NCBI RefSeq assembly: GCF_026409565.1
Contig: NZ_CP112881.1
Span: 1,039,501-1,103,500 of the forward strand
Direction: 5' to 3'
Source: Sneathiella aquimaris
GTDB lineage: Bacteria; Pseudomonadota; Alphaproteobacteria; Sneathiellales; Sneathiellaceae
Length of the DNA: 64,000 nucleotides
The notes below the pieces were generated by a model. That model was given only the letters and a program-made list of their open reading frames with translations. It was not told the DNA's origin and searched no databases. This document shows, one piece after another, positions 46,148 to 48,163 of this stretch (position 1 is its first letter; every line of letters starts with the position of its first letter). A program made the translations under genes and the position numbers.

Positions 46148-47158
46148 ATGACCAGATGGAAAGTAAGACCTGAGGGATCAAACTGGGGTGATTTTGGCGA
46201 GCAGGACCAAAATGGACGCCTTAATCTGATTACAGCAGAAACAATTCGGGAGGCAGCCAAAGAAATTCAAACTGGCGAGCGGTTTTGCCTAAGCTTACCG
46301 CTGGACCTTCCGGGTGGGAACCTGTTGAATGCAGGGCGGTTCCCACCGGAAATCCGACCAACGCTACGCAATGGAAAAGCAAATGCCAGCTATGCACTTT
46401 CCAATGATTTTCCCGATTTTACTGATGTGATCAGTGACGATGCTGTCCTGATCCATATGCAATATTCCTCGCAATGGGATGGTCTGTCGCATGTGGGACA
46501 TGAATTCGATGTCATGGGAACCGGGCAAACCGAGAAAGTTTATTATAACGGTTTCAAGGCGGGGCAGGATATTCGGGGGCCGGAAGACGAAGGAGGCATG
46601 TATGCACATGCTCTGGGTATTGAGACAATGGCCGCGAAGGCTGTTCAGGGCCGAGGCGTGTTGATTGATCTGTATTCCCGGTATCGCAATGATCCTGTCT
46701 CTGTGGGATACGACGATCTTATGTCCATTATGGAGGAAGACGACATATTGGTAGAGCCAGGTGATATGGTTTGCCTTCATACAGGATTCGCACAGCTTAT
46801 CGTGGATATGAAAGGGCAGCCGGACGCACATAGGCTGCATCATTCCTGTGCTACCCTAAATGGGCGGGATGTGAAGTTGTTGAACTGGATAACGGATAGT
46901 GGTCTTTCGACGCTGATTGCTGATAACTATGCAGTTGAGACTTATCCTTCGCATAAAGGGGATGGGTGCTGCGCGGCGCTGCCTTTGCACGAACATTGCC
47001 TGTTCAAGCTGGGCATCCATCTTGGGGAGTTGTGGCATTTAACGCCCCTTGCACTATGGTTGAAAGAGAACGGGCGCAGCCGGTTCTTTCTGACAGCGCC
47101 ACCGCTTCGCCTGCCTGGGGCGGTGGGTTCTCCAGCAAATGCGATTGCAACGGTTTAA
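46148..47158 (+). CDS. Cyclase-family (KynB-like) metal-dependent hydrolase
   Basis: 336 residues of the long cyclase-family type. The core metal-binding region reads QYSSQWDGLSHVGHEFD, taking the place of the HxGTHxDxPxH motif of kynurenine formamidase. CLHTGFAQLI and HKGDGCCAALPLHEHCLFKLGIHLGE, with several His, likely complete the active site. Such enzymes hydrolyse amide or lactam bonds; the substrate is unknown. Its place directly behind a peptide/amide-type importer suggests it acts on the imported compound, by inference. Confidence 0.85.
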   Translation: MTRWKVRPEGSNWGDFGEQDQNGRLNLITAETIREAAKEIQTGERFCLSLPLDLPGGNLLNAGRFPPEIRPTLRNGKANASYALSNDFPDFTDVISDDAVLIHMQYSSQWDGLSHVGHEFDVMGTGQTEKVYYNGFKAGQDIRGPEDEGGMYAHALGIETMAAKAVQGRGVLIDLYSRYRNDPVSVGYDDLMSIMEEDDILVEPGDMVCLHTGFAQLIVDMKGQPDAHRLHHSCATLNGRDVKLLNWITDSGLSTLIADNYAVETYPSHKGDGCCAALPLHEHCLFKLGIHLGELWHLTPLALWLKENGRSRFFLTAPPLRLPGAVGSPANAIATV

Positions 47159-47275: not shown

Positions 47276-48163
47276 ATGTTTATTCAGACCCAACCTTTGT
47301 CAGATGAAGACCGGATGCAGTTTTTCCCGGGCCGACAAGTGCTGCCAAACGGCAGTGTTTTATTTGACGATGCGGAAAAAGGGAAAGAAAAATCACCTTT
47401 GGCTGCGCGCCTTTTTGATATTCCAGGGGTTCAAGCAATTGAATTTGGCGAAGATGTCATCACAGTAACAAAGCTTTCTGCCGCGGAAAAAGGCCCGATG
47501 TGGATACAGCTGAAACCAATGGTTCTGGCGGCGATAATGGACCATTACATGACCGGAATGCCGGTGTTAAATGGCCCAATTTCAGAAGTGGGCGAGAATA
47601 GCTATTCTGATGAGGATCAAGCCATTGTTGATGCAGTAAGGGAGCTGGTCGAGGAAAGGGTGCGCCCGCAGTTACTGGATGATGGTGGCGATCTGGGATT
47701 TAAAGCCTATGATCCGACAACGGGACTTATTACCCTGGAAATGGATAGTTCCGGCCTCAGCACTCCTGCCTTTGGTACACAGATCAAAATCGAGAATACC
47801 ATCAAACATTTTGTGCCAGAGATTTCCCGGGTGAAGTTTGATCGGATGGTTCAGGAAACGGAAGTAGAAGACGGTGATCGTCCGGGCTTGCGGACACCCG
47901 AAGCCGAAGCAATCCGCATTTTGCTGGAAACGCGTATTAATCCTGCAATTGCAGCACATGGGGGATATATTGACTTGATCGATATTCAGGAAGATGTAGC
48001 CTATGTGGAGATGGCTGGCGGGTGTCAGGGGTGCGGCATGGCCGATGCAACCCTGAAGCAGGGTGTTGAAGTCGAAATTAAAAAAGCCGTCCCATCAATC
48101 GGGCAGGTCCTTGATGTAACCGATCATGCGGGCGGAACTAATCCGTATTATACCGGTTACTAA
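47276..48163 (+). CDS. Nfu-type iron-sulfur carrier with tandem NifU C-terminal domains
   Basis: 295 residues from the ATG at 47276; no strong Shine-Dalgarno is visible, but upstream codons look non-coding. An Nfu N-terminal domain (about 1-90; FPGRQVLPNGSVLFDD, MAGMP-like MTGMPVL) is followed by a first NifU domain (about 115-190) in which the usual CxxC is replaced by S158-S-G-L161, and a second NifU domain (about 205-275) with intact Cys250-x-x-Cys253 in GGCQGCGMADATLKQG, resembling the NfuA C-terminus. Nfu proteins carry Fe-S clusters to target enzymes in the cytoplasm. The degenerate first domain is the odd feature. Confidence 0.88.
   Translation: MFIQTQPLSDEDRMQFFPGRQVLPNGSVLFDDAEKGKEKSPLAARLFDIPGVQAIEFGEDVITVTKLSAAEKGPMWIQLKPMVLAAIMDHYMTGMPVLNGPISEVGENSYSDEDQAIVDAVRELVEERVRPQLLDDGGDLGFKAYDPTTGLITLEMDSSGLSTPAFGTQIKIENTIKHFVPEISRVKFDRMVQETEVEDGDRPGLRTPEAEAIRILLETRINPAIAAHGGYIDLIDIQEDVAYVEMAGGCQGCGMADATLKQGVEVEIKKAVPSIGQVLDVTDHAGGTNPYYTGY

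Follow-up and report, generated by a model that had tools for sequence, protein, structure and literature searches.

A double-domain Nfu protein of Sneathiella in which a cysteine-free NifU domain precedes an intact NfuA-type domain

Proteins of the Nfu class differ in the domains that accompany NifU, and a classification of Nfu types was reportedly given by Py et al. in 2012. Type II Nfu proteins, found in alphaproteobacteria and mitochondria and including human NFU1 and plant NFU4/5, have an N-terminal Nfu_N domain followed by a single NifU domain with a CxxC motif. NifU proper carries its NifU domain at the C-terminus, together with an IscU-like scaffold part and a ferredoxin part. NfuA of E. 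coli and Azotobacter has a degenerate A-type domain that does not bind a cluster and targets NfuA to apoproteins; both of its domains are needed in vivo (PMC8593673). The degenerate NifU domain of plant NFU1-3 has a role that has been called as yet unclear, and mitochondrial NFU proteins hold their cluster as homodimers (PMC8825329). In human NFU1 it is the two helices of the C-domain that bind LIAS and ISCA1 (PMC8991016). In yeast, changing the CxxC of Nfu1 to AxxA had an effect like that of deletion, with no detectable interaction with Aco1 and an impaired one with Lys4; the C-domain by itself sufficed to rescue the deletion, the N-domain did not, and Nfu_N is therefore dispensable there (PMC5014551). 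Plant NFU1-3 were the only two-domain case found in a search of the literature for double or tandem NifU. The wording “two NifU”, considered as a possible pointer to others, meant two separate genes or homologues in two papers that use it.

The protein described here is encoded in the window, a stretch of 64,000 nucleotides from Sneathiella aquimaris (NZ_CP112881.1, positions 1,039,501 to 1,103,500). Its features are the following.

47276..48163, + strand: double-NifU Nfu gene (type A), 295 aa with no internal stop (Pfam, relatives)
47276..47560, + strand: Nfu_N domain, residues 1-95 (PF08712 at 3-94, 64.5 bits; human NFU1 N-domain 2ltm by sequence)
47603..47845, + strand: domain 1, degenerate NifU fold without cysteine, residues 110-190 (PF01106, 35.3 bits; human NFU1 C-domain 2m5o aligned to 110-187; model)
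47747..47812, + strand: rebuilt former cluster site and helix 2 of domain 1, residues 158-179 (alignment; pN/pS of helix 2)
47897..48118, + strand: domain 2, intact NfuA-type NifU, residues 208-281 (PF01106, 76.4 bits; partial TIGR03341 match at 209-292; trees)
48023..48034, + strand: CQGC motif, C250 and C253 (translation; CxGC kept in 102 of 103 double proteins)

Pfam placed Nfu_N at residues 3-94 of the 295-aa protein and NifU in two stretches, the better one at 214-278. In the genome-wide scan with PF01106 domain 1 scored 35.3 bits (E 4.6e-8) and domain 2 76.4 bits; each stretch taken alone exceeds the curated NifU cut-off of 27 bits, so neither is a chance match. The two NifU-like domains in one chain described in an earlier sequence-only reading are thereby upheld; the N-terminal Nfu_N domain was not named there. 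Domain 1, said to be without CxxC, has no cysteine at all, and the sole CxxC of the protein is the CQGC at 250-253, which provides the Cys250 and Cys253 reported for the second domain.

Having one NifU domain with CxxC (C250/C253), the protein belongs to the Nfu class in the wide sense. Like type II Nfu it begins with Nfu_N (PF08712, 64.5 bits) followed by a NifU domain, the counterpart of the C-domain of human NFU1, and domain 1 clusters with the single domain of that type; it differs from type II in lacking CxxC in this domain and in having two NifU domains. With NfuA it shares an intact C-terminal NifU domain of the same type preceded by a degenerate, non-binding domain (PMC8593673), but that domain has the A-type carrier fold in NfuA and the NifU fold, behind Nfu_N, in the window protein. 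The A-type carrier family was absent among the three Pfam families that matched the window protein at E up to 1, and the NfuA model TIGR03341 gave 96.8 of 269.35 bits, below the equivalog cut-off, residues 209-292 matching the C-terminus of the profile. The C-terminal NifU domain is also common to NifU proper, whose scaffold and ferredoxin parts are missing here: TIGR02000 gave 39.7 of 273.3 bits, with only the C-terminal part of the profile matched. As in plastid NFU1-3, one of two NifU domains is without CxxC (PMC3721309, PMC8825329; 2z51), but there the intact domain comes first and the degenerate one second, the reverse of the order in the window protein, and no Nfu_N is described (PMC3721309, PMC8825329). 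The component parts are known; what appears to be new is their arrangement (Nfu_N, an emptied type II NifU domain and an NfuA-type NifU domain), its spread, its paired paralogues and the PLP fusions described below. The literature searched yielded none of these, nor any experiment on a double Nfu built in this way; Py et al. 2012 may mention them.

Structure prediction, proposed in the sequence-only reading as a check on both folds, gave for the window protein an AlphaFold model (47-sequence alignment; mean pLDDT 88.0, pTM 0.42) in which domain 1 consists of a helix (112-135), two strands (139-146 and 151-157), a helix (165-179) and a strand (185-190). Domain 2 has the same order of elements (208-226, 230-238, 241-248, 255-271 and 277-280). 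Residues 101-107 and 193-199 fall below a pLDDT of 50, and together with the pTM of 0.42 this means that the model fixes no mutual arrangement of the domains. The best PDB matches in a Foldseek search with the whole model were the human NFU1 N-domain (2ltm), Arabidopsis CnfU (2z51), a yeast NifU-like protein (2ltl) and the human NFU1 C-domain (2m5o). In the model of the second paralogue of the same genome, of type B (mean pLDDT 82.8), the helices and strands of domain 1 are kept, strand 137-143 passes straight into helix 144-160 and the cluster-site loop is gone; this model is weak (<50) at 224-230, the region of the domain-2 CxxC. The NifU fold of domain 1 is thus predicted for both paralogues, and in neither does the cluster site survive.

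The place assigned to the lost motif, SSGL at 158-161, was two residues early, the first cysteine of CxxC aligning with G160. A phmmer alignment with human NFU1 sets CxxC opposite G160 and T163 (GLST), with the next proline in register, and in the MAFFT multiple alignment the first cysteine falls on G160 and the second on a gap. The shift of register leaves the absence of CxxC in domain 1 unaltered.

The window genome has two NifU-domain genes, both double, the second at G000:C1:3613686-3614489 (- strand). The window protein was matched in 39 of 40 relatives; at least two full doubles are present in each of 22 of the 23 other members of the genus, and pieces in the 65%-complete G010. In an even sample of the class at least 268 of 289 members match, and a full double (a match from query residue 1 to at least 292) occurs in at least 23 of the 289, from at least 14 families. 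Across 397 genomes sampled from the phylum, a match over both domains at E up to 1e-20 was found in the window's own genome only. In each of the 31 others that match, 29 of them outside the class, the match is confined to domain 2; five such proteins were read and are NfuA-like by eye, their sources being, we assume, gammaproteobacteria.

Whether loss of the first CxxC is shared by homologues had been posed as a question, and alignment answered it: the loss is common to all doubles aligned. Among 113 distinct rows, 10 canonical single Nfu with CxGC and 103 doubles, CxxC in domain 1 was found in 0 of 103 doubles, the rows coming from searches seeded with the window protein, one of them its best 80 of 376 matches, which may favour window-like sequences. 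Three doubles (L056, L058, L130) have lone cysteines elsewhere in domain 1. CxGC in domain 2 is kept in 102 of the 103, the exception, L029, being cut by a contig end. Three more PLP fusions and the second paralogue of O. hippocampi, read separately, are also without CxxC in domain 1. A MAG with the label Nitrospira also shows a double Nfu, on a contig of 4.4 kb (L088:1191-2009, + strand), through either binning error or transfer. A frame of 361 aa is Nfu_N-like at G039:C92:55382-55657 but has no NifU domain. Frames in two alphaproteobacterial genomes from a single family (L149:1048-2424 and L152:1042-2466, both + strand) combine an N-terminus that is Nfu_N-like by eye with one NfuA-type NifU domain and, beyond it, a C-terminal extension some 200 aa long.

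Sneathiella carries two double paralogues, which differ at the former cluster site: in type A, that of the window, the site is rebuilt (GLSTPAF...), and in type B it is deleted. The 24 type A rows of the genus have a loop of the form MDSxGL(S/N)TPAFGTQIKIENT; L055, L057, L058, L061 and L116 have FSxPLF followed by a similar helix, and L091 has YKTPVF. Type B has no loop and in the alignment is seven columns shorter than the canonical form; L030, L122 and L124, with other loops, were counted with it. Outside the genus, each of the six genomes with type A (G077, G712 to G716) has a type B gene as well; the second paralogue was likewise of type B in all 12 genus genomes, the window's included, in which its sequence was read, and in the other members of the genus it was seen as present only. 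In a tree of 51 hand-chosen rows without the loop columns, a modestly supported branch (81/87) separates type A from the rest, and type B minus L122 and L124 is supported at 99/93. In the window genome the second double Nfu gene has a gene for a Cys/Met PLP enzyme, presumably metZ-like, at a distance of about 2.5 kb (L005:9080-10270, + strand), and similar genes are found in type B loci of other members of the genus.

An ancestral “fusion or duplication” had been suggested; the domain trees favour fusion, and tandem duplication fails, a tree that joins domains 1 and 2 being rejected (AU p 3.4e-5). In a tree of 51 domain sequences taken from 201 cut domains, with the PLP fusions left out, domain 1 and the canonical singles are split from domain 2 and the NfuA-type domains with support of 100/100, the alignments having only 89 columns and long branches being flagged; a tree of 113 rows agrees on the main split. 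The proposed likeness of domain 1 to mitochondrial-type Nfu agrees with its grouping with canonical alphaproteobacterial single Nfu, and that of domain 2 to the NfuA C-terminus with its place among NfuA-type domains and the partial match to TIGR03341. A single origin of domain 1 has support of 85/87, which suggests that this domain arose once. The favoured history is that an NfuA-type domain was fused onto the C-terminus of a type II Nfu, and that the older domain would then have lost its cysteines.

The pair of domains is also found without Nfu_N. In G281, G672, G258 and G179 it stands behind a PLP enzyme of Cys/Met metabolism, which replaces Nfu_N, and in G238 it stands alone, as the sole match of that genome to the window protein.

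L140:815-2578, + strand: PLP enzyme with degenerate and intact NifU, without Nfu_N
L208:2681-4393, + strand: the same
L209:2473-4353, + strand: the same
L210:2096-3925, - strand: the same
L133:1459-2004, + strand: free-standing pair of degenerate and intact NifU, without Nfu_N

The four fusion genomes represent two families, and a type B double is present in every one of them. Identity among the enzyme parts is 77-84%, and they keep the motif HSA(T/S)KY, presumably the site of the PLP lysine; the enzyme part of L140, which was the one scanned, matches PF01053 at 354.6 bits, and none of the best 25 of the 45 NCBIfam matches of L140 reaches a model cut-off. An AU test on a single clade of type A and the PLP fusions gave p 0.438. 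Around the free-standing pair, L133 has no further frame of at least 80 aa that matches the window protein. Among the literature matches listed, nothing relevant was found on a fusion of NifU with a cystathionine enzyme or on a link between a PLP enzyme and Nfu.

In a pair-bearing set of 25 genomes (24 of the class sample and G672; E up to 0.001; completeness 90 to 100%), 24 have no NifU-domain gene beyond the pair-bearing ones, so that the pair most likely does the Nfu job there. The exception, G077, with 5% contamination in its assembly, also has an intact single-domain NifU. In the host a stretch of about 5 kb contains a NifU_N (scaffold-type) gene beside two SufB/SufD genes, and a second, weaker NifU_N match lies elsewhere. 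Neighbours of type A are listed next; in GC-rich loci three families, the cyclase, a CDP-alcohol phosphatidyltransferase and bolA, were the only ones sought, by six-frame search.

46148..47158, + strand: cyclase-family gene (PF04199) upstream of the double Nfu gene (Pfam; synteny)
L055:6955-7302, + strand: BolA-family gene directly downstream of the type A gene (Pfam)
L057:2669-3016, + strand: BolA-family gene in the same place

The cyclase-family gene is upstream in all 24 type A loci of the genus and in O. hippocampi, and is a possible operon partner. The CDP-alcohol phosphatidyltransferase is downstream in 21 of the 24, the other three loci being short. To our knowledge neither is an Fe-S gene, and the neighbourhood shared within the genus was set aside as a direct clue to function. 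Among the loci examined bolA adjoins the type A gene in just two, L055 and L057, which come from closely related MAGs. A promoter/terminator scan showed no excess over shuffles (3 against a shuffle mean of 2.6, and 1 against 1.7), and a plasmid search gave no match.

In 23 Sneathiella type A genes pN/pS was 0.214 for domain 1 (helix 1 0.351, former site at 158-165 0.181, helix 2 0.029) and 0.117 for domain 2 (CxxC loop 0.000, helix 2 0.069), values that are relative only, pS being near saturation at about 0.77. Mean identities between genera for type A (6 rows), type B (28) and singles (10) were 0.33, 0.43 and 0.74 in helix 1, 0.52, 0.50 and 0.77 in helix 2, and 0.51, 0.48 and 0.65 in Nfu_N; domain 1 is less conserved than the single Nfu domain, in part because the singles compared are closer overall. 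By these comparisons helix 2 is strongly held within the genus and is the better-kept helix between genera, and the rest of domain 1 is freer.

The reading that we favour by a slight balance of probability is of a [4Fe-4S] carrier made by fusion, in which domain 2 would hold the cluster and domain 1 would dock clients or partners. That domain 2 alone carries the cluster is very likely; that domain 1 is a docking module lies just on the probable side. Joining an NfuA-type NifU domain to the C-terminus of an alphaproteobacterial type II Nfu would have yielded an Fe-S carrier of the Nfu class. By analogy with known Nfu biochemistry, two chains would pair through domain 2 with one [4Fe-4S] cluster between four cysteines, and the cluster would be loaded from the host SUF system and handed to client apoproteins. 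Less surely, Nfu_N and domain 1 may form the docking module, its main surface being helix 2 of domain 1 and the remodelled loop, and the two paralogues may serve different clients or partners.

The host SufB/SufD and NifU_N genes count for a carrier, as does bolA beside the type A gene; Bol3 works with Nfu1 in yeast (PMC5014551). The double form is common to a group of alphaproteobacteria most of which have no carrier of the ordinary kind, and the empty domain has therefore probably acquired a different task, for instance partner recognition. Docking agrees with the strong constraint that helix 2 shows in the genus and with the helix-mediated binding of LIAS by human NFU1 (PMC8991016), and has a precedent in the degenerate domain of NfuA, which targets apoproteins (PMC8593673). 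Against it count the lower conservation of domain 1 between genera, which would also fit weak constraint, the low pTM of the model (0.42), which fixes no domain arrangement, and the loss of client interaction in yeast Nfu1 with AxxA, by which a NifU domain without cysteines may dock poorly (PMC5014551).

Helix 2, the best conserved element of domain 1 in the genus, adjoins the old site, which would also suit an internal pseudo-partner, domain 1 packing on domain 2 of the same or the other chain and controlling dimerisation or the form of the cluster. The two domains share one fold in the model, and mitochondrial NFU homodimers hold the cluster (PMC8825329). Such a role is nevertheless unlikely: with a linker (193-199) below pLDDT 50 and a pTM of 0.42 no fixed packing between domains is predicted, and in type B the site beside helix 2 has been deleted outright. 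Quite improbable, too, is a leftover role, in which domain 1, weakly selected ever since the fusion, stays on only as a spacer that stabilises the fold. Its conservation, below that of domain 2 and of single Nfu, and the several different states of the old site are what a leftover would lead one to expect, but domain 1 is retained even where Nfu_N is gone (L133 and the four PLP fusions), and pN/pS in helix 2 is 0.029 within the genus. That the cysteines vanished through sequencing or assembly error, or that the segment is not NifU, is practically negligible: no supporting point was found, type A domain 1 has no CxxC in any of the 24 genomes of the genus that were read, some of them from named cultured strains, and the Pfam score above cut-off and the NifU order of helices and strands in the model contradict a non-NifU segment.

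Beyond the docking reading lies a wider and doubtful proposal, that of a clade-wide redesign. The fusion may have split client recognition (domain 1) from cluster holding (domain 2), leaving domain 1 free to take on three or more site designs (a rebuilt, a deleted and a GSPGA form) that would serve different clients in one cell, one of them tied to a PLP Cys/Met enzyme that would feed sulfur to the carrier or be helped by it. How Nfu carriers choose their clients is an unsettled question. The fusions of a PLP enzyme with NifU point to a possible Nfu partner. With cluster holding and the ancestral client-facing domain separate in one chain, and two diverged paralogues in one cell, these proteins would offer a clean test of which part selects the client.
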